From the IMG/VR virus record IMGVR_UViG_3300020185_002459, positions 1 to 35,336 of that record: a DNA stretch of 35,336 nucleotides; one strand, given 5' to 3'. The notes under the pieces are model-generated. The model was given only the letters and a program-made list of their open reading frames with translations, did not search any database and had not been told where the DNA came from. The stretch is from a virus. A program made the position numbers and the translations under genes. Shown here in pieces: positions 63 through 28,933 of this stretch. The number at the start of each line of letters is the position of its first letter. Positions within the stretch are counted from its first letter, which is position 1.

Positions 63-1358
63 ATGACACAAAAAAACAAAAGGACTAGAATTCAAAGCAA
101 GTCCATCGAGGGAGTTGAAGTAACTCAAACAGAGTCAACACAGTCTGAAAAGACCGAGGTTAAAATCGAGAATGAAAGAGATAAGTGGACTTTAGACAAT
201 GGTGAGTTTGATTGGGACGGATATGGCGCAACATGTCCAACTAAAATGAGAAAACCTAATCCTCATATTAAAACACAAGAAGGAGATAAAGTTTTTTCTA
301 GAGAGCCATACGCTCAGGACTTTTATGACCAACTTGTAAATGCGCATAAAGAAAATGAATTTGTACATAAACTTAAAGTAGGAGAAATCTACGACGGTAA
401 AGTTTACGGTGTAAATGAAAAGTTTGCTACAATCGACGTTAATTATAGACAACTTGTGTTTATTCATCTTTCTAAAGAAGATCCTCAATACAGGAATGTT
501 ACACCAGGCGAAGAAGTTTCGGTTTTGATTACTGAAGGTACAAATGACGATACTCGAGCTCATATTACTGGAACTATTTCAGGTGGAATGAAGCAACGTA
601 TCTTTAAAGATCTAAGAGCCGGTATTGATTCTGCAGACACAGCATGGACTGGAGTTGTTAAAGAAATGATCTCTGCTGGAGGATATGTTGTTAATGTTCA
701 AGGTGTAGATTGCTTTATGCCAGGTTCTTTAGCCGGTATAAATAAATTGCATAATTTTGAATCAATTGTTGGTACAGAAATGTATGTTGTGCCGGTATCG
801 TTCTCACAGGAACGCGGCACACTAGTGGTCTCGCATAGAAAATATTTACAGGCTATGATACCTGTTGAAATATCTAAACTACGCGAGAATATCACTGAAA
901 GAGTTACTGGTACGGTTACTGGAACTGCTAAATATGGCGTATTCTGTGAGTTTAATACTTGTTTAACTGGCATGATCCACGTGAATGATCTAGATCAGGA
1001 AACTTTTAAAAGACATAAGTCACAAAGTATTAAACCAGGTGAAGAAGTAGAATTCTTAATTAAAGAAATTGTTTCTAATACTAAAATCACTTTGACACAA
1101 AAGACTTTAGAAGAAGCAAATCCATGGATTAATATCAATGAAAGATATAAAGTTCCAAGCACTGTTAAGGCAAAGGTTAAAGCAGTTAAAGATTATGGTA
1201 TTTTTGTAACGCTTGAAGAAGGTATAGTCGGTCTACTACATATTAGTGAAGTTGGCGAAGATTTAATTAAGGTGTTTAAGAACGGAGATGACATCACTGT
1301 TCAAATAACCAGAATAGACGCAGAGACTAGAAAAGTTTTTCTTAAGCTACCATCATAA
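63..1358 (+). CDS. Ribosomal protein S1-like RNA-binding protein, four S1 domains
   Basis: A 431-residue protein with four consecutive S1 (OB-fold) RNA-binding domains at about residues 105-170, 193-260, 280-348 and 362-430. Domains 3 and 4 show the classic pattern, with KYGVFCEF and DYGIFVTL followed by GLLHISEVG. Domain 2 has FMPGSLAGI and ends in LVVSHRKYL, as in domain 2 of bacterial bS1. The first 100 residues are charged and linker-like and include FDWDGYG, which recalls the FDW or FNW start of Bacteroidota S1. Host S1 usually has six domains, so this is a shortened form. S1 binds the 30S subunit and unstructured leader RNA to promote initiation. I infer that the phage protein steers host ribosomes to phage mRNA or acts as an RNA chaperone. 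The start ATG follows an A-rich leader with no Shine-Dalgarno site. S1 domains are certain; the role is inferred. Confidence 0.85.
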   Translation: MTQKNKRTRIQSKSIEGVEVTQTESTQSEKTEVKIENERDKWTLDNGEFDWDGYGATCPTKMRKPNPHIKTQEGDKVFSREPYAQDFYDQLVNAHKENEFVHKLKVGEIYDGKVYGVNEKFATIDVNYRQLVFIHLSKEDPQYRNVTPGEEVSVLITEGTNDDTRAHITGTISGGMKQRIFKDLRAGIDSADTAWTGVVKEMISAGGYVVNVQGVDCFMPGSLAGINKLHNFESIVGTEMYVVPVSFSQERGTLVVSHRKYLQAMIPVEISKLRENITERVTGTVTGTAKYGVFCEFNTCLTGMIHVNDLDQETFKRHKSQSIKPGEEVEFLIKEIVSNTKITLTQKTLEEANPWININERYKVPSTVKAKVKAVKDYGIFVTLEEGIVGLLHISEVGEDLIKVFKNGDDITVQITRIDAETRKVFLKLPS

Positions 1359-2723: not shown

Positions 2724-3566
2724 ATGAGCGAAATTAGAAGCGGAAATAATGAAAGCTTAGGGACTCCGAGAGAATTTAGTAATGAGTGTGAAAACTTGTT
2801 TTTAGATGAGATCGCAGATGAGTTAACAGGTGCATGTATGATTCCTATAAATTTGCCTAAGAAAGAAGTTCTCAATATTATGAAAAGAGCTAAAAAATGG
2901 TTCTATAAAAATTATGAGTATTCCGTAAAAGAAAACTATTATAGAATTCCTGTTTCGGTTTTTGATACTACGTATTTTAAACAACACAGGGCTCTTCATT
3001 TACCAGATGCTAGCATAGATGGCGGTGGAATGGTTTATTCTGTTTATGGTCTTTACGATTTAGCGAGCGGCTGGAATTCACCTGGAAGTGGAATGGATTT
3101 GAGATTTGAAAGTGGGGCTGATTTTGCGCTTGAACGTATGTTATTTAGAAACGTATATGACGGTGACGGAGGAGCTAGAGGCGCAGAAGAATTACAATAT
3201 TATGTAATTAACCAATCTTTAGTAGATCTTTCTAGACAAATCATGGAGAATCCAATATCGTTTCATTACTCACAATTAACAGGAGAACTTAAATTTATGG
3301 GAGATACCCCTAAAGGAGATGTTGTTTTAGAAGTATACGAAACTATACCTGATTGTGCTTTGTACTCAGATGAAATTTTCTTTAGATATGTTTCGGCTAA
3401 AGTCAAACAGTCATTAGGCGCTAAATTAGGAGTATTTAAGTTTTCTTTACCTGGTAATGTTGAATTTGACTACTCTGAAATTAAGTCTATGGGAGACGAA
3501 GAGTTGTCCGAAGTAATAGAAGAAATTAAAGGAGATGAAGGTGTAGATTGGATGATGCACTCATAA
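2724..3566 (+). CDS. Neck protein, gp13-like (head completion)
   Basis: A 280-residue protein. The C-terminal third reads as in T4-like neck proteins: a LYSDEIFFRYVSAKVKQSLG segment, then GVFKFSLPGNVEFD and an acidic helix with EELSEVIEEIKGDE, ending at the chain end. In marine T4-like phages gp13 has the equivalent order of a helix reading Y-L-K-K-Q-W-G, an LPGG-type turn, then an acidic helix. The N-terminal part (GACMIPINLPKKEVLNIMKRAKKWFYKNY) also has the helical pattern of a connector protein. T4 gp13 has 309 residues, close to this one. It would sit between portal and tail and close the filled head. It is followed by gp25 and gp6 homologues, which supports a virion role. The assignment rests on recalled family patterns, so a different connector or adaptor is possible. 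The ATG lies one base after the previous stop, with no Shine-Dalgarno site. Confidence 0.55.
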   Translation: MSEIRSGNNESLGTPREFSNECENLFLDEIADELTGACMIPINLPKKEVLNIMKRAKKWFYKNYEYSVKENYYRIPVSVFDTTYFKQHRALHLPDASIDGGGMVYSVYGLYDLASGWNSPGSGMDLRFESGADFALERMLFRNVYDGDGGARGAEELQYYVINQSLVDLSRQIMENPISFHYSQLTGELKFMGDTPKGDVVLEVYETIPDCALYSDEIFFRYVSAKVKQSLGAKLGVFKFSLPGNVEFDYSEIKSMGDEELSEVIEEIKGDEGVDWMMHS

Positions 3567-3591: not shown

Positions 3592-3948
3592 ATGGAACTT
3601 TACATTAAAACAATAGGTGATCCTAATTTTGACCCGCTTAAGGTTCATAGTAATGGAGAAATTGCACAGCTTATTACACAAATAGAAACTGTACTATTTA
3701 CTAATAAGCGTGAAGTTTTAGGTAAGCCTAATTTTGGATGTAATTTAGAAGATTTAGTATATTCTTTAAATTATAATAATTATCAGATTAAAGAAAGAGT
3801 AGACCAACAAATCAACGCTTATTGCCCTTTAGCAAAAAAATATAGAGTATCGGCAGAAGTAAATTTCGTAAAAGGTACAGTTAGAGATATTGCATATATA
3901 GATATAACAATAGACTCTAAATACTTATTACAAGTTTACATCAACTAA
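3592..3948 (+). CDS. 25: Baseplate wedge protein, gp25/gpW-like
   Basis: A 118-residue protein of the gpW/gp25 family, the small wedge protein shared by contractile injection systems (T4 gp25 has 132 residues). The segment LITQIETVLFTNKREVLGKP followed by NFGCNLEDLVYSL matches the family signature: a helix, then a turn with a conserved R and a P-x-FG step. In T4, gp25 forms the wedge core with gp6 and gp53. Here it lies just before the gp6-like gene, as expected for this family pair. There are 15 bases between its stop and the gp6 start. Confidence 0.8.
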   Translation: MELYIKTIGDPNFDPLKVHSNGEIAQLITQIETVLFTNKREVLGKPNFGCNLEDLVYSLNYNNYQIKERVDQQINAYCPLAKKYRVSAEVNFVKGTVRDIAYIDITIDSKYLLQVYIN

Positions 3949-9941: not shown

Positions 9942-11906
9942 ATGGCGACATCTCTAATTAGGATACCACAGCCACAAGGTGGCACTATGTATGCTTTTGC
10001 TTCAGCAGCAAAGGATATAACTCGTGCGTTTAATAATCCAGATATCAAATTTGAGTTTAGTAAATTTGCTTTGCTAGACTTACCGGATTTTACGACACCT
10101 GTTAATGGCTTAAATACTATTAATTTAACTAATCAAGTAGCTGCTTCAGGAAGTCAATACTTAGCCGATTCTGAAGCTAACGTAGAATTTGCACAATCTT
10201 TTCAAAGCTACGTATTAAACTTAGAAGAACTTCTTTTACAAGACGATGATCATGATCCGGTTTTATTACAATCAGATGCTGAAAAGATACTTTTTAAATG
10301 GCTATCTGGTTTAGGAGCTATTCGCTTTAAAACAAGTGATTCATCTGAATCTACTTCAGGAACACACTATACTGAATCACTAGATGCTAACAATACAGGT
10401 CAAGACTATGAAAGAGTAGTTAAATATTTAGGTTCAATTGATGCAGAAAACGATATAGCATATAAGGGTAATACTTATCATGAAGTCTACATCAATGTAC
10501 CGTCTGCTGTAGGAAATACTCCAACTGTTTTATTTAGTCCTAGAGATTATAATACAACAGCTACTAAAATGTATGCTGAAAATACATTATCTGGTAGAGG
10601 AGGTCAATCGCATCCCGATCCTAATTTAACGTTAGATTCTATAATTGACGTTGGTTCAAATGCAGGAGGACCTTACTATGATGTAAATACAAATGCAACC
10701 GATAGCGTACACATCGATTTTGAACCGTTATCATATCATGGAATATCTAGCGATACTAAAGTTAGTACATTAAATGATTATGCTAAAAAGGGCCAAGACT
10801 TTAGATTTAATGCTGTTTTAGTTTACTATGATTTATTTAGCACATCTACCCCGGTAAATAGAGCTACAAACTTATACGGTATATTAATTTTAGATAATAT
10901 TGGAGGTAACTTCGGTATAGGCTCTAAAATACACGAACAGCTTAAGTTTAAACCAAACGAAGTTACAGGTCTTAACGGTAACGCATTCTCTTTAAAACTT
11001 AATTTAAAGTTTAACACATCATTAGATAACGTAGGTGTTGAAACTAATATTAATGATTTTACAACATTCTCAATGGACTTGTTCTTGGATACTACAACAG
11101 CCCTTGAACATGCAACTGATCTATTACTGAGAGCTAATAATCTATATGGAGGATTAGCTAATAGGCTTGAGGATTTAGAAAAAATAGTGTTAGCCGGAGA
11201 AGAAAGAGATGAGATAGTAACTAGAATTAATGACTTAGAAAATAGTTTTAACAATGCTTCTATTGCGTTACAAGATTCAGATTCTCTTTTAAAACTAATA
11301 ACAAAAGCACATACCAAACTCAATACAATATTAGATGGTACAGTACCTGTTGAATTACAGTACAATACTGACGTAGTATTCAACGGTATGGGTACAGAGG
11401 TAGATAAGAGCGTACCCAATAGAATTAAAGTAAACAACACAGTTTACGGATATCATAACAATCCGTTATTTAAGTGGGATATAAATACAGGTGAAAGAAT
11501 AGGAGAAGTTTTAAGCTCTACTAATACGTTTAACCCAGGAGAATCAGGTGCTGGAGCTGCTCAATTCGGAGTATGTGCTACATTAAAGGGATATACTAAT
11601 AGAATTAGCCTAGTTGATAAATTAGAAGGTAATTCTTCTGATAACCCTGAACTAAATGCAGATTTGAATATATACATTGACGACAGCAAAGTAGCTTGGA
11701 AAACAGGACAAGTTGTAAAAATTACATTTGAAACACTAAACGTTTCTGAAAGTGATATTTATATTAGAACTGATAAAGCAGCTGGTTTTGATAAAATAGT
11801 TGGACAAGTAATAAGACCTTCTATGCTTATCTCTAATAAACCATACTTCGAAGTCACTTGTATAGACCCTATAAATTATATTTTCGAAGTAGATATTTTA
11901 CGATGA
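9942..11906 (+). CDS. Virion structural protein, probably baseplate
   Basis: A 654-residue protein without a recognised domain. The start MATSLIRIPQPQGGTMYAFA is distinctive. A short helical stretch at about residues 400-450 (LLLRANNLYGGLANRLEDLE and on) is coiled-coil-like and divides a beta-rich N-terminal part from a beta-rich C-terminal part. This is compatible with a trimeric baseplate or fibre protein in the position of T4 gp8, gp9 or gp10. The sequence does not allow a choice among these. It follows the short fibre gene after 15 bases and its stop overlaps the next start as ATGA, so it is probably made together with the 1217-residue protein. Confidence 0.6.
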   Translation: MATSLIRIPQPQGGTMYAFASAAKDITRAFNNPDIKFEFSKFALLDLPDFTTPVNGLNTINLTNQVAASGSQYLADSEANVEFAQSFQSYVLNLEELLLQDDDHDPVLLQSDAEKILFKWLSGLGAIRFKTSDSSESTSGTHYTESLDANNTGQDYERVVKYLGSIDAENDIAYKGNTYHEVYINVPSAVGNTPTVLFSPRDYNTTATKMYAENTLSGRGGQSHPDPNLTLDSIIDVGSNAGGPYYDVNTNATDSVHIDFEPLSYHGISSDTKVSTLNDYAKKGQDFRFNAVLVYYDLFSTSTPVNRATNLYGILILDNIGGNFGIGSKIHEQLKFKPNEVTGLNGNAFSLKLNLKFNTSLDNVGVETNINDFTTFSMDLFLDTTTALEHATDLLLRANNLYGGLANRLEDLEKIVLAGEERDEIVTRINDLENSFNNASIALQDSDSLLKLITKAHTKLNTILDGTVPVELQYNTDVVFNGMGTEVDKSVPNRIKVNNTVYGYHNNPLFKWDINTGERIGEVLSSTNTFNPGESGAGAAQFGVCATLKGYTNRISLVDKLEGNSSDNPELNADLNIYIDDSKVAWKTGQVVKITFETLNVSESDIYIRTDKAAGFDKIVGQVIRPSMLISNKPYFEVTCIDPINYIFEVDILR

Positions 11907-14900
11907 ATACGAACAACTCACTTTCTACAATAATTAAGCAGTTTTTAGAGATTAATACTAATACTCTAAACGCTTTCGAGCGCATAAACGAAGCGGTAAT
12001 CTCAGATAGAGAAACAGTACCACTAGATATCTTAACAGAAGAAGGTAATACTAAAACAGTCTATGTTCCTGCGTTTGGTTATATGAACCGTGAGTTAAAA
12101 AGATTAGATCTTAACATTAAAGCTCTTTCTGGTCTAACCGACGGTACTGCTAAAGTTAGACTAGCAGATGGAAGCTATCAAAGAATTTTAAAGTCAAGCC
12201 TTAAAACACCGGCTTCTGATATTACAAACATTAATAGGCCCTTTGAGTTTAACACAAAGTCTAATAACTTCTTTGAAGATTATTTAACGCCTTTACTAAC
12301 AACCTCATTTGATGTTAGTAATCAAATCCCTACAGATACTGAAAGGGTTTTGGTTAAAAGAATAGTTATTGATGGTTCTTTTGATTTTGCTGCTCAATTC
12401 TTTGATGAAAATTATAAGGGGTTAGATGATATTAGCCATAATAATTTAATTAACGCAATAGCGTTTGATAATATTCCGTTTTATGTTGATGAAGAAGTTA
12501 GAGATATGCCATACAGAAATACTTTGTATTATGGCAAATTTGACGTTACTTCTATTGATACAATTCAAAAGACAATTATTGTAGAAGGTGAAGAAACAAG
12601 AAAGACAATAAAACTATACACCTTAGATAAACTAACGTATACTGATTCTGATAAAGATTTAAACGATACTGAGTTTATGAAGGTCGGAGATGAGTTAATA
12701 GTTAATACTTCTAGAAAAAGCACTAAATATAAGGTCAAAACAATCTACACTGAAACTAGACAGGTTGAGTTGGACATTGTAGAAGGATATGAAGCTATTA
12801 AAATAGGTGTAGACATTCTTTCAATCTATAAAGCAAACGATACTCAAGTAAATATAGAGATAAATGTAGGGTTTGATGAAAGGTTTATAGTTTTCTTTAA
12901 GCCGATTGATCCTAATTCTAAGATCATTGCTGAAAACTGGTCACCTGGCGCTGGTGTTTATTCTAATGAGTTGACTATGACTATGGATTCAGGTGAAACA
13001 ACAACGCTTGCTAATTATTATAGTCAAAATGTTGCTGACTTTGGTCAATTTATCAAGTCACTTAAGGATGATCCAATACCGCCGTCAACGTTAGGAGTTG
13101 CTCCTAATATTCCTGAAATTTTTGAAGAAAACTTCAGTGTAGTTCAGATTAATAAGCATTTGACCGAAAACGACGCAGCTCTTAAGATTAAAAAACTTAC
13201 AGCTGATAAGGTAAGTGCAGACTCTACCGTTAAAAAATTAGACGATACTATTGCTAAAAAGAGATCATTAGTTTCTACTAAAAAGTATAAATCGACGATT
13301 GAAAGAGACAGAGATAAAAACGAATTAACGTCATTAATTAATGAAAGAGCATCTGAGGCTAAATTATACAGTTCTATTGTAAGTCAGATTCAATCATCTG
13401 CATCTGACTCTCAACTAACTAAGATAGAGCCTAAGTATAGAATCAGAGGTTTTTGGTCTATACCTGAGGCTAAATTAGTGGCTGAGACTATACCACAGGA
13501 AGTTGTAAAATTTAGAGTTCAATACAGATACTTGTCTACTTCTGGAAAAACTTCTGAAATTGCTCAAATTTCATTTGACGAAAATGGCAATAAGAAAACA
13601 GGAGTATTTAGTAATTGGAATGAATATGAAACTCCGGTTAGAGCTAGGCTAAGAAACGAAGAAGGTAAATTTTATTGGTCTGATAGTGCTGTTGAAGATG
13701 GACAAGAGGTTAACTTTAATCAGCTAGACATTCCTATAACTTCGGGTGAAGTTGTAGAATTTAAGATTAAATCTATTTCAGAAGCAGGATGGCCAAGCAA
13801 TCCACTAGAATCGGATTGGTCAGACATTATTAGAGTTTCTTTTCCAGAAGGAGAACTTGATGATGTTAGTATAACGAACTTAGTAGAAGAAAACGCAAAT
13901 GAAGTCGCAAGAGTAAAACTACTTGAAGAACTTGAGGCCGCTGGAGTTTACTCTCATATTACAGATGCTTTCTCATCTAATGAAAAATACTTTGCACATA
14001 CTTCAAATACTATTGCTTCAGGGTTCTTATCGCCTGAACAAAATCCGGTTTCATTATTTGATAAACTAAGTGAAATGCAATCCAAATTAAGTGGATTAGA
14101 AGAAACTATAGCTAATATACGAGGGGATTTATCGGTAAACTTAGTTGCCGAAGATGGTACAACAACTGAAATTAAGAAGAATACTAATAATCAGGTATTT
14201 GCAGGTTACTATAAAGATGAAGTAGCAGATTTATCTATAAAGAAGGGTCATATTGTTACCAAGACATTTAAACTAGTTCTTAATAATACACGTTCTACCA
14301 CACTGGAACTTATTGCCAGAATAATAGGGGATAGAACTTTACCAGCATATAAATCTACTGATTCACTTGGAGATAACGGGTTTGGATTTAATCCTTCTGG
14401 AGAAATAGACGCTAAGGTTCTCGATGATAATTATTATAGAACAGAAGGTAAATATGATATGTCCCCGATTCAATATCAGTCTTTAGGTGAAGAAAATGCT
14501 ACGCAATTCACCAGTGCTGCACCATATCAATCTATTCAAAGAAAAGGCCAATTCATTTACTCACGCTATATGGACGTAGCCAATGAGTCTCCACTGTATC
14601 TAAAAGAGTCAGTTATAGGAAATGAAACAAACGATAAATTTTCTGATTATGAATATGAGTTAGGTTATTCCACGTATGACTCTGGTGTAGATGATGTTAG
14701 TTTTATGCAAGTAAACGGAAATGCAGGTTCGAATGGATTTATTTGGTCAGGCACGTTTGGAAGATTTATTAAGATTAATGGAGATGTTCAAATACCAGGG
14801 GTTGAAGCTGTGTTTACGACTAATAACATCGCAGCAGGTGGACAAAGCACAGAACACATTGATGTAACTGAAACAGATAGCATTGATCCTAGTTTATATG

Positions 14901-15556
14901 ATAACGGTTTATTTTTACATAAATCTCATCCTGATTTACCTAATTTATTTAGCGGTTATATTTCTAATATGGAAGGTCTAGACCTAAATGCTCCTACGAT
15001 TACAGTTACTGATACTAATTTAAAATCAGCTATCACTACTTTGGTTGATAATATGACATATTCTATGCCTAAAACTGCTATATTAAATGACGCTAATGTA
15101 AATAACTTAAAACAATTAGCATATAGATACGATGAAGAGGTAGATAGAACTATTAAAATGTCATTTGATGCTAATGATCAATTTACACTGGGTGGTAAAT
15201 CATGTGGGTCTTTCTTGTTCATGTCTCCTATAAACTCACAGTCTCTTACGGTAGACGGAGATAATAAATTTGGAGCTGCTAGAATTTTTGAAGGTGAAAA
15301 TAATGCAATATCGATTGATATTGTTTTTCAATATAGAATGACCGACTATGCTGGTAATAACCCAAATAGTGACATTGGCAGAATAGGTGGAATTTTAACT
15401 CAAAATGTAACTAACTTAACTTATTCTAAAAAGATAGGCTTAGATATCTTTGATTCTAATGATAATCAATTTTCGTTTGACCTAGAAGTTTTTGCTAAAT
15501 ATAAAGCACAGGGTACTAATCAAAATTCTTCAAAAGCGGTTACTCTATCCTCGTAA
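11903..15556 (+). CDS. Large virion protein with coiled coil and fibronectin-like region
   Basis: A 1217-residue protein. I start it at ATG 11903, which overlaps the previous stop as ATGA, rather than at the in-frame ATG at 11858, which would extend it by 15 residues into the upstream gene. Residues about 425-510 are a long charged coiled coil (LTADKVSADSTVKKLDDTIA to SIVSQIQ). Then comes a fibronectin type III-like part (about 515-655) with VVKFRVQYRYLSTSG, VFSNWNEYETPVRARL, VEFKIKSISEAGWPS and SDWSDIIRVSFP. A second helical region (about 705-735) precedes a beta-rich C-terminal half. This layout fits a baseplate-attached fibre or spike-surrounding protein. Function in detail is unknown. Confidence 0.65.
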   Translation: MNTNNSLSTIIKQFLEINTNTLNAFERINEAVISDRETVPLDILTEEGNTKTVYVPAFGYMNRELKRLDLNIKALSGLTDGTAKVRLADGSYQRILKSSLKTPASDITNINRPFEFNTKSNNFFEDYLTPLLTTSFDVSNQIPTDTERVLVKRIVIDGSFDFAAQFFDENYKGLDDISHNNLINAIAFDNIPFYVDEEVRDMPYRNTLYYGKFDVTSIDTIQKTIIVEGEETRKTIKLYTLDKLTYTDSDKDLNDTEFMKVGDELIVNTSRKSTKYKVKTIYTETRQVELDIVEGYEAIKIGVDILSIYKANDTQVNIEINVGFDERFIVFFKPIDPNSKIIAENWSPGAGVYSNELTMTMDSGETTTLANYYSQNVADFGQFIKSLKDDPIPPSTLGVAPNIPEIFEENFSVVQINKHLTENDAALKIKKLTADKVSADSTVKKLDDTIAKKRSLVSTKKYKSTIERDRDKNELTSLINERASEAKLYSSIVSQIQSSASDSQLTKIEPKYRIRGFWSIPEAKLVAETIPQEVVKFRVQYRYLSTSGKTSEIAQISFDENGNKKTGVFSNWNEYETPVRARLRNEEGKFYWSDSAVEDGQEVNFNQLDIPITSGEVVEFKIKSISEAGWPSNPLESDWSDIIRVSFPEGELDDVSITNLVEENANEVARVKLLEELEAAGVYSHITDAFSSNEKYFAHTSNTIASGFLSPEQNPVSLFDKLSEMQSKLSGLEETIANIRGDLSVNLVAEDGTTTEIKKNTNNQVFAGYYKDEVADLSIKKGHIVTKTFKLVLNNTRSTTLELIARIIGDRTLPAYKSTDSLGDNGFGFNPSGEIDAKVLDDNYYRTEGKYDMSPIQYQSLGEENATQFTSAAPYQSIQRKGQFIYSRYMDVANESPLYLKESVIGNETNDKFSDYEYELGYSTYDSGVDDVSFMQVNGNAGSNGFIWSGTFGRFIKINGDVQIPGVEAVFTTNNIAAGGQSTEHIDVTETDSIDPSLYDNGLFLHKSHPDLPNLFSGYISNMEGLDLNAPTITVTDTNLKSAITTLVDNMTYSMPKTAILNDANVNNLKQLAYRYDEEVDRTIKMSFDANDQFTLGGKSCGSFLFMSPINSQSLTVDGDNKFGAARIFEGENNAISIDIVFQYRMTDYAGNNPNSDIGRIGGILTQNVTNLTYSKKIGLDIFDSNDNQFSFDLEVFAKYKAQGTNQNSSKAVTLSS

Positions 15557-15610: not shown

Positions 15611-18600
15611 ATGCCAAATTTCGTTACTAAAAGTATATCACTTTATTATAAGCCTCACGATGGCTTGGGTTTAAACCAGGGAAATGCGAATCAATTACCT
15701 ACATCAGTAGGTCCAATTTCGTATTACTATAAATTAGATACGGGTAATGTTAACCCTAACGATGTAGATTGCTCTACTACGTATACTACTATTTTAAATC
15801 TTTCTACTACAGCTGGTATAGAAATGCCTGCCCCGTTAGATGCAGATGGAGGTCCAGGTGGACCTGGATGTTCTAATCCAATATACAGTTTAAGTCAACT
15901 TGTAACTGCAGGCATAAGATTGTATTATAATAGCGCATGTACTGACGAAGCAGATCCTGGTAAATATAGCAGTAATGCATTCCCTGCTAAAATATTTGAT
16001 CCAAACGACGCTGAAGATAGTATAGTTTATAGTTATAAACCACCGTCTTCTGTAAATTTTCATAATATTTTATTTGACTGGGAAACTTATACAATTCCAG
16101 CACCGGGCGGAGGAAATCAAAATGTTTTGCAACAACTTGTAGTTTATCCTATATTTCCGGTATTGGTCGATTTTTTACCAACATTAGGACAAGTAAGGTA
16201 CAAACCGTATGGAGTAGAACCTTGTAATTTTTTAGTTTCTACTAGTATTTTGTCTGGAGTTTCTTATTTCCCGACCGAAGATGTCCCAGCTGGATCTTCG
16301 CTATCCGAGATTGCAGAAGCTGGTATTTCTATTTTAAATTCTGATGGAGAAACATTATCAGGCTTTTTTGCAATATCTAGTTTTCCAAGCAATCTCAATG
16401 ACGTTACCGTTTATAAAGCCTTAAGTATTACCATCTCTTCTACTAATTGGGAAAGCTTTATATGTACACAAGTCGTTGCTCCTAATGAAACTGTTAGAGA
16501 ATTTACAGTGCCTTTTGCGGAAGAAGCAATAGCACAACCGCTAAACACCACTGATTATGGAGAGTTTATAGATTCAAGTTTATATTGTTCTAGTAATACA
16601 AATAAAAGAATATTTTACTGTAACGATTCTACTGAATATGCAAGTTTTTATGATCTTGTGCTGGCAAATGAGACAATTTACTTTAGTAATGTAAATTTAC
16701 CGGCTAACGTGATTCCACAATATTGGCAGCTTGTCGACGCAAATTCAGCTTCTTATGGTATTAATGAAAATAGTTATTTTTATTTTTTACAACAAGAGTT
16801 ATCTGGTACTACAATAGCTAATACATGGGATGGTCCAGGGTGGTATAGAGTAACTTCTATAGTTACACTTAATTCATATATAAATATAGATACAGATACT
16901 GATCCTTATAGCTGTAGCATTGCAGGATTAGATGTAAACGGTATAAGGACTATTACTTTAAATTATGCTGATAGTTTATCTAATTATTGCAACATTACGT
17001 CTACTAATTCTAGTAATTCAGAAATAGTTTGTCAATATTATAATCCATTAGGTGCATATGATTTAACATTAGATCAAATAATTGAGAATCAAATTTTTAT
17101 TTACACCGATTCTATTGAATACGCATCATATTACGAAATAAATAATCTTTTATTAGACTCGGGTTTTTATGGAGAACAACCAGGTATATGTTATAATTTT
17201 AATAACAATATAGCTGAAGAAAATGGAAGCCCATGGAAAGGAAAAGACATGGTGACTACTTCTAGTGAATATAGTTTACCATTTGTATGTGAAGGCACCT
17301 TATCTCAAATTTCTTTAATTAGTATAGGAGGACAAACTGTCAACAACTCTTTAGGTATTTGGAATATTTTATATCCAGAGTATGACTTTAGTGATGAATG
17401 GTGTTTTAGACAAAAAGCAAATTCTATAAATTATTACTATAGCTTACATGCTGACTTAAATTTTGATATACATCAAATTGTTCAATATGGCATAACTTTA
17501 TATAAAGACATTAATCTGTCAATACCAATAAGTAATGATTCATATTCAGATGATACGGCTTATTATTATAAGTGGTTAAATAATGTAGATGAAACAGGTG
17601 GAAACTGGATAGGTCTTAATGAAGAAGGCCAAGAATCATCTGCGTTTATAACTGATTATATTGAATGTAATTTAACACCTAATTCTAATTTATTTCCTGA
17701 TCCTAGCTTTGAAATTATTAATCAAACGGGCATAAGTAACGATGGAGAACTATTAGCTTTTTATGTATTTACATCATGTATACCGGTAAATGGAGTTTAT
17801 TCTAACTATATAGTATTCGGTTCGCATACTAATCAGGTCACGTCGGGCCACATGTTTGAATTTGCTGAAGAAATAGGGTTTAACTCTACATTCTTTAGTT
17901 TTGATTCAACAGACTTAAAATATGGTTGTAAAAAGTTATTAGGTAGAATATATGCGTCTTCTCCAGCTGAAGCTGCAGTTTCAATGGCTACTCTAGGTTA
18001 TTTTCAAGGAAATACACAATACGTTAGCCCAAATACCATTGGTATACTAAGCGAAGGTACTGTATATTATTTTAACGATGAGCCATATTGCCAAGACTGT
18101 ATAGATTTTGCTAACAGTAACCCTTATACATTCTCTTCATTTGCTGAAGAATCTCAAAATGCAGATCCTTTACCTAAATTTAATTTAGAAGAAAACTACA
18201 ATTTACATAACGTATCTAAACCACTATTAAGGACTAATCCTAGGCTTACTGGAAATGTAAAACTAGTTACTTCATCAGTTGGAGAAATATATTTAGAGTC
18301 TATAAATGCTAATAAAGAGTTAGCAGATTCTAGATATAAACGATATGGCGTAAGTTCAGATAGTTCATATGTGTATGATGTTTCTAGATTCTTTAACGAT
18401 AATAGAACACCATATGATATGGTTTATGAAACTAAAAGAACCGCTTCTGATTTCTCTGTTTTAGAGTCTTATGATTTACAGTTTGAAGATGAATATCAAT
18501 ATGGCGTAAGATTTAATAAATCAAAATTGTATGATGAAAATTTTAGAATATTTGCACCTATTAAACTAGATTTAAACATACCTAAATCATTTGTAATATA

Positions 18601-21600
18601 TCGAATATCTTCTCCTAAACAGAATCGTAGTTTAAACGACAACGCATCTGATAAACGAGATAGAATTAGCGATATGTTATCTAATGCAACTATAATTAAA
18701 ACATTTGATTTAAGCGAGACTTCAAAATTAGGAACATACATAAGACATCATGTATTTAGTGAAGATTTTAATAGCTCTCCTCTTACTGTATCTTTTGAAA
18801 AAAATGAACAAACGTTTTATAATGGAATAGATCTTGTAAAGGGAGGTTTTACCAATAAGGGTGAGTATGTTTATGATGATTATGTAGCAACTGATAAGCC
18901 ACTTATTGAAGCTAATGATTTTATTACTGATGGCTTTAAGAGGAATAGAGTTATATCAGGTGATATTATCAATTTAGAATTTATGTTTGATGATATAGAA
19001 GCTGAAGATTATTCCGTAAATAGATACTTTGGTCTTTACGTGGATGAAATTCCTTCAGGAAAGGGTAAAATAGAAAGAGTTAGTAAAGGTTTAATTAAGT
19101 TCAAGGATTTAACTTCTAACATGTACTATGACAATTTAGAAGGATCTTTGTTTGATAAAAATACGTTTGCTATACCTTCTAGTCAAATGATGAGTGACAT
19201 ACCTGTATTAGGATATGTTAAGTGTGATTCACATTATCACAATATATTAAATGGAGCTTCATGGGACGCTGAAAATTATACTTTAAAAATAAGTGATAAT
19301 AACGATTCAATAAATCGTTATGTAGGTATAAAAGACACTAACCGTACGGTCGGTCTATTAGAAAAACAGGGTATAGGATATGACTTTGTAAAAGTAAGCA
19401 TTAATGATATACCTGAAAACGGATCTAGAATAGCATTTCCAGAAATAAAACAACAATCATATTGTGTAGAATTTATTAATCATATACCGAATACTACAAT
19501 ATTTATTAATATTTCATATCCTACTGTTCAAACCATAGCTGTTTCTACAGGATCAAACACTGAAGAAGCATTGAATAATATAAAGAATGTTCTTCATCCT
19601 AATCTTTTTGATCAAAGCACAGGTGAACCAGTACTTAATAACTCTACTTATTTTATAGTTGATATAGAAAATAATGTTGCGTTTATAAAAGAACGAAACA
19701 GAGCAATTTCAAATCACGATATAAATATTACGACATCCAATCCAGCTTGTGTTGTTAAAGTTATTGAAAACTATTCACATTTTAATTTATTAGAGAATAT
19801 ATTAACGGCTGATGATTCTATACCTAAGGGTAGATTTAGCGGTTCTAGATTCTCAAACGTAGGTAATATAAACGATGTATTAATAGCTTTATCTTCTGCA
19901 ATTAAGAATAAAGATGGTTTAGGTGTTGTTAATTCTAAAGGTGTGATTTATGTATATTCTAAAAATAACATAGGATATGATAGAAGACAATTTGGCGTAT
20001 TAATAAAGAAAGATAATCCTAATGTGTTCTGTGATATAGATAATTTAGATGAATCCAACAGATTAGACATAATAGATGATATAAAAAATGATTGGAATGT
20101 CCATTATATGATTGGAGGTCATTCAGATGGTAAATCTGTTTTGATTTCTAAAGATTCATTAGGCGGAATAAAAGCAGGTGAGTATATTAATACAAAATCT
20201 ACCTCTACATATAACGAAGTCATAGATATAGTAGAAAATATAGATGATATAACAGGCGATTATTTAAAAATAGTTCTTAAAAATAGGCATAATTTAGGAA
20301 GTGGAGAATTTAAAGTCTTTTCAGAATATGAAGCAGAGATAGGCCTTTTATCTGCATATGATATGTATGATATGGGTTATGATTTTTATGATACTTCTAA
20401 TTCTGATCTTAAAGAACTTAAATATGAAACTTATGAAAATACTAATTATGTTCCAGCTAACGAAGCTATATTTAATTCAACGTCTGACGAAGAATCTATT
20501 ACAAATGCGTTAGAAGGTATCATAGAATATGATTATTATCTTACACCTGATGAATTTTTTACTAATTTAATACCGGTACTAAACCCTGAATCTCCAACGG
20601 AAGAGAGCCAACTTAAGATTTATTCAGAGTATGATAGATTGAAAGAAAATCAACTTAAAGAATTTTCTACCGAATCTAGAATAGTACCAAATATAAATAA
20701 GTGGGTATTAAAAGATACTAAAACAGTCAGGGACCAACCATATTATTTAAATGTAAACGAAGCTTTTGGTAGAACTAACTTCTCACCAGATGTCACAATA
20801 GAAGGTAGGGACGTGGCTGCATTTACGCATGAATGGTTTTATATAGCTAATAAACCAGAGTATCTAAAACATTATATGCTAAATGAAACGTTTAGTTATA
20901 TTAATTATATAAATGGATTTAAACTAGATAAGGATTTATTTAAATCAATAGATGACGATTATTTTAATAGCTTTATGGTTAGCGAAGGATTTGATGTGGT
21001 TGTAGATCCAGATGGGTTGAAAGAATATGTAGTTACTAAATCTTTAAACGTATTGTTTATCAATGATGAACCAGGAGCTTCTTTAAGTTTAGTAGTAGGT
21101 AATACCTATTTATTTAATTTAGCAGATTTAGAAAATCCTTCACTATTTAACATTAGCGAAGACACAGTTGGCACGTATGTTTACGAAGTTATAGGTGGAG
21201 TACCATATGGTAAATATACTACTATCTCGTCCGGTTTTGTACAATATTCATATGATTCTATAGAATATGGAAATATATCTATATCTAATGAAGACCTAAA
21301 CAAATTCGAGGCATTTATAAAAACTAATCGTAATATTAAATACACTATCAGTCGTAACGGTAACGAAAAAAGATTCTCTTCTACTATATTCAAAGGCCTC
21401 AAATTTACATTTAAGAATAGAAAGGAGTTTGAAGAAAATATACCTTCTAAATTTGTAAAGGACGGTTCTTTTAATAATTATAAATTTTCAACAATAGTAG
21501 ACTTTGTTACTGGACAAAATAATAATTCTATAGATTATGAGGTCATAAAAAACGATAAATTTGAATTTATTATTTTTTATATTACTATTAATTTAGATGA

Positions 21601-23383
21601 AGTATATGTTGGCAATACTTTAAATAGAAAACTAGCATATTTGCTTTCAAATCAAGTACAGTTATCCGGAGAAGAGTATATCGCAGATGACGTTAAAATA
21701 AACGGAGCATTGGATCTTAGTAATATTGATTTTAATCAATTGGGGCCATATGTTGTATCTGGTATAAATCATTTTGATGGTACTTCTCCTAATTTTATAA
21801 CTCAAATTGTTCCAGGACTGGACGGTACATTTGGACAATTAGAAATAGATTATCAAGTAGAAGATTCCAACGGAGATCCAGTGATTTATTATTTACAACC
21901 AATTAGTATATTATCTAATAGTCAAATAATAGTAGAAGGACCTCCTGTAGATGCACAAGGAGATCCTATAAATCCAATATACTTACCTCTTTCTTTACAA
22001 GAAATAGCGACATATGTATATGTTGGAGGAGGATCTAATAATCATAATGTTTTACTTTCAAATCTATCTATTAATAATATAGTTGATTTAGTTAATGAAT
22101 ACAGCCCATTGGTTAAGTATGTCACTATAACGGAAGATGGTCAAATACTAAACAATAGGTTCGCTATGACAATCGACGACGGAAAAGAAATAATTAGAAA
22201 GTCCGAGTTAATAACTAAAGCTGATACTAAAAAACCTAAAAGTTATAGGTTATTTAATGAGAATATAGGGTATGTTTTAGAAAAAGGTAATTCTTATTAT
22301 CCTTTCTTAATTAGACACTCCGGTGAATATGAATATGATCTTACCCCTGTAATTACGTTTACTGACGTATATACTCATTTTAAAGTTGATAGAAATTATG
22401 TAAAAAATGCATTTTTAGATGAGAAATTATTTAAGAATAAATTTTATAGGCATCCTTCTTCTGAATCAGATGAATTCTCTATGTTTGGGCCCCGTAACGT
22501 ACATAAAGCTGAGTCATATTATAATAAATATAATAGAACTAACGTAGCCTTTAATTTAGGTTTTATATCAGATGATGACACACACGACGCTAAATGGGGA
22601 ATGATTAAAAATCATTTTTATCATAAAGTAAATGAAGATAATTCAACAGGAGTAACTAAACTTAGTGAAAGTAGTGAATTCTTACCAAAATATCCATTAA
22701 TAGGCGAAACGGCTATTGATAAAAGAGATGTTAACGTATTTAGGTCTTCATGGGAAAAAGATTATTATAGAACATCTTTGGCTGGTGGAGAATTTATATC
22801 TGCACCTGGAACTTTATCCACTGTTGAATCAAGATCATATTTAGCTTCTACTGTTATGAAATTAAAAGAATCATACACTATTACGTTATTTGATGTTAGA
22901 AATGCTAATACTGTTGAAAATCTAAATAATATCTTAAAACTAAATTCTGATTCTAAGAAAAAAAATGTTGTTTTTTCTGAAGATAAAAATAAAATTTATG
23001 TAGATTTTTATATGTCTGATATTATAGTAGATGTACTATCAGACTCTGGAGTTGCAGATGAAATTAAAAAATATGTTTCTGCAGATATTTCATTTCAGGA
23101 TAAGACTGATTTATTAGATGATGTAAGATCATATATAGAGAATAATTTAGTAAATTTGTTTTCAGTAGATGAGGTAGAACTTTATGTTAGAAAGACGCAA
23201 AGCGAATCTACTCAAATAAACCCAGTTGAATCTTTAGATCAAATAGATAATGGTGGTTTTAAACTAGATATAAATTATACATTGGAACCTCACAGAAAAA
23301 GACCTATTAATTTTAGATTGATATATAACAAGGGTTTAGGATATTCTTATGTTATGAGACCAGTTATAAAAATAAAACAGTGA
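15611..23383 (+). CDS. Giant virion protein (2590 residues) with cysteine-containing repeat region
   Basis: The longest gene in the window. Residues 1 to about 870 hold degenerate modules with a cysteine, a YY step and a GI-x-LY-x-D/N step (AGIRLYYNSACTDE, AGISILNSDGE, NQIFIYTDSIEYAS, YGITLYKDINLS), reminiscent of adhesion-type modules in Bacteroidota proteins. I count about 18 cysteines there and only about 4 in the remaining 1720 residues. From about residue 875 (KPLLRTNPRLTGNVKL) the chain becomes a beta-rich structural protein. Residues about 1808-1890 (LSLVVGNTYLFNLADLENPS) repeat a cupredoxin-like module also found in the genes at 6071 and 26292. It is probably a tail-associated fibre or baseplate giant. 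The repeat region may contact the host; this is inference. Confidence 0.7.
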   Translation: MPNFVTKSISLYYKPHDGLGLNQGNANQLPTSVGPISYYYKLDTGNVNPNDVDCSTTYTTILNLSTTAGIEMPAPLDADGGPGGPGCSNPIYSLSQLVTAGIRLYYNSACTDEADPGKYSSNAFPAKIFDPNDAEDSIVYSYKPPSSVNFHNILFDWETYTIPAPGGGNQNVLQQLVVYPIFPVLVDFLPTLGQVRYKPYGVEPCNFLVSTSILSGVSYFPTEDVPAGSSLSEIAEAGISILNSDGETLSGFFAISSFPSNLNDVTVYKALSITISSTNWESFICTQVVAPNETVREFTVPFAEEAIAQPLNTTDYGEFIDSSLYCSSNTNKRIFYCNDSTEYASFYDLVLANETIYFSNVNLPANVIPQYWQLVDANSASYGINENSYFYFLQQELSGTTIANTWDGPGWYRVTSIVTLNSYINIDTDTDPYSCSIAGLDVNGIRTITLNYADSLSNYCNITSTNSSNSEIVCQYYNPLGAYDLTLDQIIENQIFIYTDSIEYASYYEINNLLLDSGFYGEQPGICYNFNNNIAEENGSPWKGKDMVTTSSEYSLPFVCEGTLSQISLISIGGQTVNNSLGIWNILYPEYDFSDEWCFRQKANSINYYYSLHADLNFDIHQIVQYGITLYKDINLSIPISNDSYSDDTAYYYKWLNNVDETGGNWIGLNEEGQESSAFITDYIECNLTPNSNLFPDPSFEIINQTGISNDGELLAFYVFTSCIPVNGVYSNYIVFGSHTNQVTSGHMFEFAEEIGFNSTFFSFDSTDLKYGCKKLLGRIYASSPAEAAVSMATLGYFQGNTQYVSPNTIGILSEGTVYYFNDEPYCQDCIDFANSNPYTFSSFAEESQNADPLPKFNLEENYNLHNVSKPLLRTNPRLTGNVKLVTSSVGEIYLESINANKELADSRYKRYGVSSDSSYVYDVSRFFNDNRTPYDMVYETKRTASDFSVLESYDLQFEDEYQYGVRFNKSKLYDENFRIFAPIKLDLNIPKSFVIYRISSPKQNRSLNDNASDKRDRISDMLSNATIIKTFDLSETSKLGTYIRHHVFSEDFNSSPLTVSFEKNEQTFYNGIDLVKGGFTNKGEYVYDDYVATDKPLIEANDFITDGFKRNRVISGDIINLEFMFDDIEAEDYSVNRYFGLYVDEIPSGKGKIERVSKGLIKFKDLTSNMYYDNLEGSLFDKNTFAIPSSQMMSDIPVLGYVKCDSHYHNILNGASWDAENYTLKISDNNDSINRYVGIKDTNRTVGLLEKQGIGYDFVKVSINDIPENGSRIAFPEIKQQSYCVEFINHIPNTTIFINISYPTVQTIAVSTGSNTEEALNNIKNVLHPNLFDQSTGEPVLNNSTYFIVDIENNVAFIKERNRAISNHDINITTSNPACVVKVIENYSHFNLLENILTADDSIPKGRFSGSRFSNVGNINDVLIALSSAIKNKDGLGVVNSKGVIYVYSKNNIGYDRRQFGVLIKKDNPNVFCDIDNLDESNRLDIIDDIKNDWNVHYMIGGHSDGKSVLISKDSLGGIKAGEYINTKSTSTYNEVIDIVENIDDITGDYLKIVLKNRHNLGSGEFKVFSEYEAEIGLLSAYDMYDMGYDFYDTSNSDLKELKYETYENTNYVPANEAIFNSTSDEESITNALEGIIEYDYYLTPDEFFTNLIPVLNPESPTEESQLKIYSEYDRLKENQLKEFSTESRIVPNINKWVLKDTKTVRDQPYYLNVNEAFGRTNFSPDVTIEGRDVAAFTHEWFYIANKPEYLKHYMLNETFSYINYINGFKLDKDLFKSIDDDYFNSFMVSEGFDVVVDPDGLKEYVVTKSLNVLFINDEPGASLSLVVGNTYLFNLADLENPSLFNISEDTVGTYVYEVIGGVPYGKYTTISSGFVQYSYDSIEYGNISISNEDLNKFEAFIKTNRNIKYTISRNGNEKRFSSTIFKGLKFTFKNRKEFEENIPSKFVKDGSFNNYKFSTIVDFVTGQNNNSIDYEVIKNDKFEFIIFYITINLDEVYVGNTLNRKLAYLLSNQVQLSGEEYIADDVKINGALDLSNIDFNQLGPYVVSGINHFDGTSPNFITQIVPGLDGTFGQLEIDYQVEDSNGDPVIYYLQPISILSNSQIIVEGPPVDAQGDPINPIYLPLSLQEIATYVYVGGGSNNHNVLLSNLSINNIVDLVNEYSPLVKYVTITEDGQILNNRFAMTIDDGKEIIRKSELITKADTKKPKSYRLFNENIGYVLEKGNSYYPFLIRHSGEYEYDLTPVITFTDVYTHFKVDRNYVKNAFLDEKLFKNKFYRHPSSESDEFSMFGPRNVHKAESYYNKYNRTNVAFNLGFISDDDTHDAKWGMIKNHFYHKVNEDNSTGVTKLSESSEFLPKYPLIGETAIDKRDVNVFRSSWEKDYYRTSLAGGEFISAPGTLSTVESRSYLASTVMKLKESYTITLFDVRNANTVENLNNILKLNSDSKKKNVVFSEDKNKIYVDFYMSDIIVDVLSDSGVADEIKKYVSADISFQDKTDLLDDVRSYIENNLVNLFSVDEVELYVRKTQSESTQINPVESLDQIDNGGFKLDINYTLEPHRKRPINFRLIYNKGLGYSYVMRPVIKIKQ

Positions 23384-28382: not shown

Positions 28383-28933
28383 TGATTTTAAATTCTAGAA
28401 ATAATTTATTTTCTTTTAGGTTTCCTAGGAATTTTATACCTGAAGAAGTTGCTAACAAATACGTTAAGTATTTAAATAGAATGCCAGGTAATTTAATGCA
28501 AAGGCCTATAGATTTTGTAAATTACTCTATTCAAGGTCTTAATGTTCCAGGTGTTTCATTTGATCCTATATCTCAGGCGGATAATGATGGTACTACTAGA
28601 TATCACAGAGGAGCTGTTCCAATACAAAATACGGTTGAACGACAATTTACAGTTACTATGCAACTTTTAGATGGTTATGTAAATTATTGGATAATGATGG
28701 ATACTCTATTATATTATTATGCTAGATCAACGGAAGATCCATTTACAGATAATTTAACTATGAGGATTATGGATGCTGAAGGAATAGGTATGGCATCGAT
28801 GGTATTCGAACAACCTATTATGAATTCAATTAACGAACTTAATTTAAATTTTGCAGAAAACGTAGCAGAATTTAGTACATTTGAGGTTACTTTCTTTTAT
28901 AATAAGTTAAATCTCAAGATTGAAATAGATTGA
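28382..28933 (+). CDS. Tail tube-like protein (gp19 / tube-initiator fold)
   Basis: A 183-residue protein. The pattern VNYSIQGLNVPGVSFDPI, then a strand with VERQFTVTMQLLDGYVNYWI, and a final ELNLNFAENVAEFSTFEVTF fits the tail-tube fold shared by T4 gp19 (163 residues), gp48 and gp54: a Y-x-V-x-G-L-x-x-P start, a central strand followed by a Y-x-N-Y-W helix, and a closing FxVTFxY strand. Because it lies next to baseplate genes rather than near a sheath gene, it may be a tube initiator rather than the main tube protein. The start overlaps the previous stop as TAATG. Confidence 0.5.
   Translation: MILNSRNNLFSFRFPRNFIPEEVANKYVKYLNRMPGNLMQRPIDFVNYSIQGLNVPGVSFDPISQADNDGTTRYHRGAVPIQNTVERQFTVTMQLLDGYVNYWIMMDTLLYYYARSTEDPFTDNLTMRIMDAEGIGMASMVFEQPIMNSINELNLNFAENVAEFSTFEVTFFYNKLNLKIEID

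Follow-up and report, generated by a model that had tools for sequence, protein, structure and literature searches.

The stretch of DNA analysed here, hereafter the window, is a virus record of 35.3 kb (35,336 nucleotides) with T4-like neck, baseplate and tail-fibre genes as well as RuvC-like, ssDNA-binding, primase and UvsW-type helicase genes. Its first gene encodes a homologue of bS1, the ribosomal protein that supplies the ribosome with messenger RNA, and the features of this locus that are considered below are the following:

27-34, + strand: late-promoter-like box GATATATA, 36 nt ahead of the S1 start
44-51, + strand: S1-leader motif ACCTTTAA, within the predicted leader of ~24 nt
63-1358, + strand: phage S1 gene, ATG start, 431 aa, four OB (S1) domains
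207-227, + strand: FDWDGYG codons (residues 49-55), an F-x-W-x-x-[YF] motif at the start of a predicted short helix (51-57, AlphaFold2)
387-575, + strand: OB1 (residues 109-171), matching bS1 OB1; Arg129, at nt 447-449, aligns with E. coli Lys43
645-833, + strand: OB2 (residues 195-257), matching bS1 OB2 only and bearing the phage signature FMPGSLAGINKL
903-1097, + strand: third OB (residues 281-345), of RNA-binding type, with Tyr291, Phe294 and His306 kept and the signature EFxxCLTGMI
1158-1346, + strand: fourth OB (residues 366-428), of RNA-binding type, with Tyr378, Phe381 and His393 kept
1412-2722, + strand: protein of 436 aa with an amidoligase-like domain and a pentapeptide-type C-terminal beta helix, with its own GATATATA box at 1379-1386; 3' of S1 in 70/70 loci
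2724-3566, + strand: head-tail adaptor (T4 gp13-like neck protein, phrog_211); fixed neighbour in 70/70 loci
3592-3948, + strand: baseplate wedge gp25-like protein, Pfam GPW_gp25 just below its cut-off; fixed neighbour in 70/70 loci

The S1 protein and its gene neighbourhood

Pfam recognises three S1 domains in the ORF at 63-1358, together with a weak cold-shock-type OB match over the first, and AlphaFold2, run with 48 phage homologues, predicts four OB barrels at the residues listed above (mean pLDDT 77), in agreement with the four S1 domains counted in a sequence-only reading of this DNA. No PHROGs family was found for this ORF, and its best score against the NCBIfam rpsA equivalog, 174 bits, lies below the cut-off of 524. 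Values of dN/dS of 0.05-0.08 versus close relatives indicate that the gene is under purifying selection; the in-frame TAA flagged in some S1 matches was the ordinary terminal stop.

When domain profiles were compared, OB2 of the phage proteins matched OB2 of bS1 with a mean of 34 bits and stayed below 8 bits against any other domain, OB1 found its best bS1 match in OB1, with the PNPase S1 domain scoring almost as high, and the last two domains fell with the RNA-binding OB3-OB5 type. A strict assignment of OB3 to OB3 and OB4 to OB4 was unsupported, the third phage OB being closer to OB4/OB5 than to OB3, and the assignment proposed from these profiles is OB1, OB2 and two OBs of probable RNA-binding type, nothing finer. 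The best solved structures retrieved by Foldseek were those of bS1 on 30S mRNA-delivery complexes (E 2e-27), RNase R following at 3e-6. An identity as an RNase-type S1 protein (PNPase, RNase R, NusA, Tex) was ruled out, whole-chain fold and domain scores favouring bS1 and only OB1 being near-equal with PNPase. A grouping with RNase-associated S1 proteins, the alternative weighed in the sequence-only reading, appeared neither in the profiles nor in the structure comparison. Judged from its sequence, the phage S1 is built like a bS1 while scoring below the NCBIfam cut-offs. The FMPGSLAG of OB2 is invariant across the 48-sequence phage S1 alignment, and the same site reads FLPGSQIDV in Bacteroidota bS1 and FLPGSLVDV in E. 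coli; a search with FMPGSLAG in 84,980 genomes led only to the weak Tex-type match described below. FMPGSLAGI, one of the two features that had been taken as Bacteroidota-like, instead marks the phage family.

The order S1 / amidoligase-like / gp13-like / gp25-like is kept in 70/70 loci with room for it, and a tail-lysozyme gene lies upstream of S1 in 59/59 loci. LR756500 has the same order of S1, amidoligase-like and neck genes, and in the huge Mahaphages the neck-protein homologue is found 46-144 kb away from S1. Cellular contamination of the contig was ruled out, the S1 gene sitting among T4-like genes in all 70 loci. Regarding the protein encoded at 1412-2722, Pfam Amidoligase_2 was detected in 7 of 27 homologues (best 1e-6), and its AlphaFold2 model (pLDDT 89) led Foldseek to a glutamine-synthetase-type fold. 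Further along the window, two giant tail-region ORFs at 11858-15556 (1232 aa, TTG start) and 15611-23383 (2590 aa) gave only PHROG matches of unknown function.

Anchor residues, relatives and host

The S1 of E. coli holds to uS2 with its OB1 and N-terminal helix, the contact residues including Phe5, Phe9, Lys43 and Phe79, of which Lys43 inserts into the uS2 Zn pocket (PMC10123108). The Lys43 position (Arg129 here) is R/K in 23/23 sampled relatives, with K in 5/7 huge phages, and the Asp39 position is D in 21/23. Phe79 was not conserved in the alignment of these relatives, and the N-terminal aromatics of the phage S1s are present, their alignment with Phe5/Phe9 being unreliable. Near the N-terminus, F-x-W-x-x-[YF] is found in 65 of 71 distinct phage S1s, with 0.2 expected from shuffled N-termini. 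It also occurs in 4/4 Bacteroidota bS1 sequences, drawn from plasmid-collection records and from PDB 9zcd (F. johnsoniae, an entry that also contains bS21 of this species), where it reads F-N-W-x-x-[FY], and in 0/6 other bacterial S1s examined, so that FDWDGYG, the other feature previously described as Bacteroidota-like, does deserve the name. The motif was absent from five huge-phage S1s (LR756500 and four Mahaphages), and within the huge-phage set only the Lak members carry it. From these alignments we infer that FxWxx[YF] may be the Bacteroidota counterpart of the E. coli S1 anchor helix.

The RNA-binding Y/F/H residues of the third and fourth OBs are nearly invariant in the sampled relatives. 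Bacteroidota bS1 has six OBs (PMC6705787), and the C-terminal domains missing from the phage S1 would correspond to OB5-6 in number; in E. coli, the delta56 S1 that lacks these two still associates with 30S, yields initiation complexes and sustains growth (PMC3858243). The earlier suggestion of a shortened form that could bind RNA while lacking the host contacts is at odds with the sequence, which keeps the anchoring part and appears to lose the C-terminal domains that are dispensable in E. coli.

One protein query matched 51 viral loci and an alignment query 493. An alignment search of 84,980 bacterial and archaeal species gave only one weak, unrelated match (a Tex-type protein), homologues without the exact patterns used escaping such a search. 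A 42-sequence tree unites phage and huge-phage S1s in one clade (30 phage rows, support 100/100), set apart on a long branch from all bacterial bS1, Bacteroidota included (97/96). The phage S1 is part of a deep and apparently phage-only clade of ~490 viral contigs, whose viruses are mostly marine and which takes in S1s of 460-735 kb huge phages and of Lak phages, the largest contig of the smaller class having 205 kb. The S1 of Microcystis phage PhiMa05 groups with bacterial S1s, outside this clade. Recent acquisition from a Bacteroidota host is ruled out by the tree, in which no position within Bacteroidota bS1 was recovered.

Huge phages of 462-735 kb and Lak phages supply the nearest relatives among phage records. 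The closest UvsW helicase to that of the window is also in LR756500 (57.6%), and the neck protein two genes downstream of S1 has relatives only in huge/Lak phages, in Tenacibaculum and Chryseobacterium phages and in phage PAU. Considering these neck-protein relatives, the SD-less A-rich starts and the Bacteroidota-type bS21 of related contigs, the host of the window phage is very likely one of the Bacteroidota.

Start regions, the late box and bS21

With gene starts taken from a simple longest-ORF, first-ATG caller, Shine-Dalgarno (SD)-like 4-mers were found at 0/22 window starts (~5% in shuffled sequences), at 3% of starts in each of two large relatives (115 and 137 starts), and at 2.5% of 320 pooled starts (shuffled, 6-7%). 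The same script found them at 55% of starts in T4, used as control, and the claim of a genome devoid of SD sites is thereby upheld. At positions -14 to -11 and -3 of the phage starts A is over-represented, the same pattern as reported for F. johnsoniae (PMC6847099), with whose ribosomes extra bS1 doubled initiation on one SD-less mRNA (PMC9976891).

The box GATATATA lies within 60 nt upstream of 66/72 S1 genes, and also precedes many other genes, that of the head maturation protease among them (45 upstream matches in three genomes, where shuffled words averaged 1.6). Read by analogy as a T4-type late promoter, the box would make S1 a late gene whose leader measures ~24 nt; for the majority of boxed genes, S1 among them, the predicted leader is ~13-50 nt long and the start region A-rich. 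In 11 of the 45 cases (positions 28932 and 30056 of the window; contigs G002 and G004) the box stands exactly 12 nt before the ATG, a spacing that is conserved between orthologues and that, on the same analogy, would yield leaderless late mRNAs.

The S1 leader itself carries the motif AC[CT]nTT(T)AA, present in 69/72 S1 genes versus 24/648 other genes, and over 92 orthologue pairs no other upstream region is as well conserved between two phages, the leaders being 96% identical and the proteins 55%. A regulatory role of the motif, for instance in autogenous control, may be hypothesised. A structured leader was discarded, the predicted leader and first codons folding to only -1.2 kcal/mol, as was mimicry of the 16S 3' tail, a match that by eye is not kept in variants.

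The neighbour of S1 on the 30S platform, bS21, is encoded by 10/12 S1-bearing contigs above 73 kb, and phage S1 by 13/15 bS21-bearing contigs above 73 kb (22/31 over all sizes), although these contigs are related, partly near-identical, and the counts are not independent. Both proteins are encoded in 4/7 huge/Lak records with a clade S1, and neither was found in four complete cultivated relatives, the same S1 search having matched 16/16 S1-bearing records. No bS21 was found in the window itself; in the close relative G002 it lies 24 kb upstream of S1, beyond the stretch that the window would cover. The best match of the phage bS21s is to F. johnsoniae bS21, and at the Tyr54 position they have retained an aromatic residue, His standing there in one of them. 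A Tyr54-type residue of bS21 blocks the anti-SD in Bacteroidota, and other Bacteroidota phages express their bS21 late (PMC9723584). The two genes are 17-34 kb apart and the late box was not found in the 30 nt upstream of the phage bS21 genes looked at, so that S1 and bS21 may or may not be co-expressed, a point against the reading favoured below.

An SD-like sequence stands just upstream of two phage bS21 genes (aaaggaggtagagtcATG in contig G005, the other in G002 around 13139) in genomes that are otherwise SD-less; an SD-like site before host rpsU, with autoregulation, is reported in Flavobacteriales (PMC9976891). The huge relatives LR756500, LR756504 and LR756501 also encode IF3. As further parts of the same kit, IF3 was set aside, being confined to huge phages (3/4, against 0/14 smaller S1-bearing contigs), and so was tRNA supply, no tRNA being found in two large contigs.

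Function of the phage S1 and comparison with known systems

Set beside the established homology and domain order, the conserved anchor and RNA-binding residues, the SD-less starts, the late-cluster position and the co-occurrence with bS21, the reading that we favour, with a probability of roughly 55%, is that of a late, 30S-bound, four-OB analogue of bS1 that with the phage bS21 re-equips the SD-blind Bacteroidota ribosome. The phage S1 would be made late in infection, and its N-terminal FxWxx[YF] segment together with OB1/OB2 would anchor it on the host 30S, the partner in E. coli being uS2, so as to displace or top up the loosely bound host S1. The last two OBs would then be offered to phage late mRNAs at their unstructured A-rich leaders, possibly with some preference for these mRNAs. 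Phage bS21 would be placed in the same platform, where bS21 helps to hide the anti-SD in Bacteroidota, and the two might act jointly; S1- and A-driven starting would in this way continue or rise when very many structural proteins are needed. The rpsA score below the cut-off and the long branch outside bacterial bS1 suggest that the function may have drifted, which counts against this reading, as do the loss of the uS2 contact Phe79 and the lack of FxWxx[YF] in five huge-phage S1s, and since phage start contexts look host-like, a preference for phage mRNA is not evident. Of the earlier proposal that the S1 homologue redirects ribosomes to the phage's own leaders, initiation on unstructured A-rich leaders fits the data, while redirection understood as discrimination against host mRNAs has no direct support. 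More tentatively, and on the whole rather doubtfully, S1 and bS21 might be handed down together and jointly take the place of the host proteins surrounding the mRNA-docking/anti-SD pocket; SD-less late mRNAs would then be served by a ribosome of phage type, and S1 would limit its own output by binding to the conserved leader pyrimidine motif (~-18 to -14), next to the expected host S1-mRNA contact (-12 to -15).

The protein could also work off the ribosome, binding RNA so as to protect, unfold or route phage mRNAs, or assisting an RNase of phage or host origin, or the RNA polymerase, in the way that host S1 assists T4 RegB and Q-beta replicase. Extraribosomal roles of S1 are numerous, T4 exploiting host S1 for RegB and through RIII (PMC9409239; PMC3877843), the phage protein is particularly well conserved at the RNA-binding residues of its last two OBs, and the authors of the huge-phage study left "on or off the ribosome" undecided (PMC7162821). 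Nonetheless, we hold such a role to be unlikely, considering that (i) it needs no OB1/OB2, Lys43-type basic residue or Bacteroidota-type N-terminal motif, yet all are conserved, (ii) in T4, RegB depends on OB4 and OB5 for its activation and OB5 is the domain bound by RIII (PMC9409239), whereas only two RNA-binding OBs remain here, and (iii) the bS21 linkage points to the 30S.

Quite unlikely, in turn, is a decoy or shut-off factor that sits in the S1 site or on host mRNA and depresses translation in the host, phage translation being sustained by, for example, leaderless late mRNAs or phage bS21. A truncated S1 that anchors with fewer mRNA-binding domains could indeed compete, and the 12-nt spacing of some boxes suggests leaderless mRNAs, which depend least on S1; however, most boxed genes have predicted leaders with A-rich starts, expression with the late cluster would be rather late for host shut-off, and E. 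coli S1 without OB5-6 is functional (PMC3858243). The fixed position of S1, with a tail-lysozyme gene on one side and neck genes on the other in all loci with room, would suit a virion-associated or assembly protein, an S1 fold recruited to the neck/baseplate cluster and packaged or injected with the DNA, but the whole of the sequence resembles bS1 and no tail or head domain has been added to it, and the distances in Mahaphages indicate that the neck link is not obligatory, making this option very improbable. Finally, phages often acquire host genes, and a piece of host rpsA might be carried as ordinary cargo with no specific role; against a deep phage-only clade, hundreds of contigs, purifying selection, a fixed gene order and a conserved leader, this explanation is scarcely credible.

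In the choice of start codons without SD pairing in Bacteroidota, S1 is the usual suspect. The reading as a late, 30S-bound bS1 analogue bears on this choice in that a compact phage S1, under purifying selection and with a bS21 partner, names FxWxx[YF], Arg129 and one leader as directly testable in F. johnsoniae. That S1 and bS21 belong to the same ribosome site would fit a virus refitting that site for its own messages. Their pairing also gives genomic context to a puzzle of 2013, when S1 and S21 were among the few ribosomal protein genes recurring in cleaned viromes (PMC3877843).

A structure library already lists marine phage proteins under the label "30S ribosomal protein S1", and Al-Shayeb et al. 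proposed in 2020 a phage rpS1, on or off the ribosome, in SD-less huge phages (PMC7162821). With respect to the open-licence literature, what appears to be new is the extent of the clade in smaller contigs, the OB1-OB2 anchor analysis, the motif shared with Bacteroidota, the S1-bS21 linkage and the leader motif. The rpS1-like proteins of huge phages (Mahaphages) and Lak phages (PMC7162821) resemble those studied here in belonging to the same clade (100/100) and in their SD-poor genomes and Bacteroidota hosts. They differ in that our contigs are smaller and carry FxWxx[YF], a motif that within the huge set is confined to Lak members; the available sections of that report do not describe for them a link with bS21, a leader motif or an assignment of the OBs. 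Compared with Bacteroidota bS1 (rpsA), the phage S1 shares the OB1-OB2 order, the FxWxx[YF] N-terminus, the basic residue at the Lys43 position and the RNA-binding residues of the last two OBs, and departs from it in having four OBs instead of six, a separate long-branch clade, scores below the NCBIfam equivalog cut-offs, and the FMPGSLAG and CLTGMI signatures. The bS1 of Microcystis phage PhiMa05 (PMC13157829) is likewise phage-borne, but its grouping with bacterial S1s marks a separate acquisition. Phage-encoded bS21 (Mizuno 2019, PMC6375957; Chen 2022, PMC9723584) offers a parallel in the supply of an exchangeable 30S platform protein by Bacteroidota phages, with a late-cluster logic. It is nonetheless a different protein, and while the bS21 phages of 2022 were reported without other ribosomal protein genes (PMC9723584), those found here mostly carry S1.
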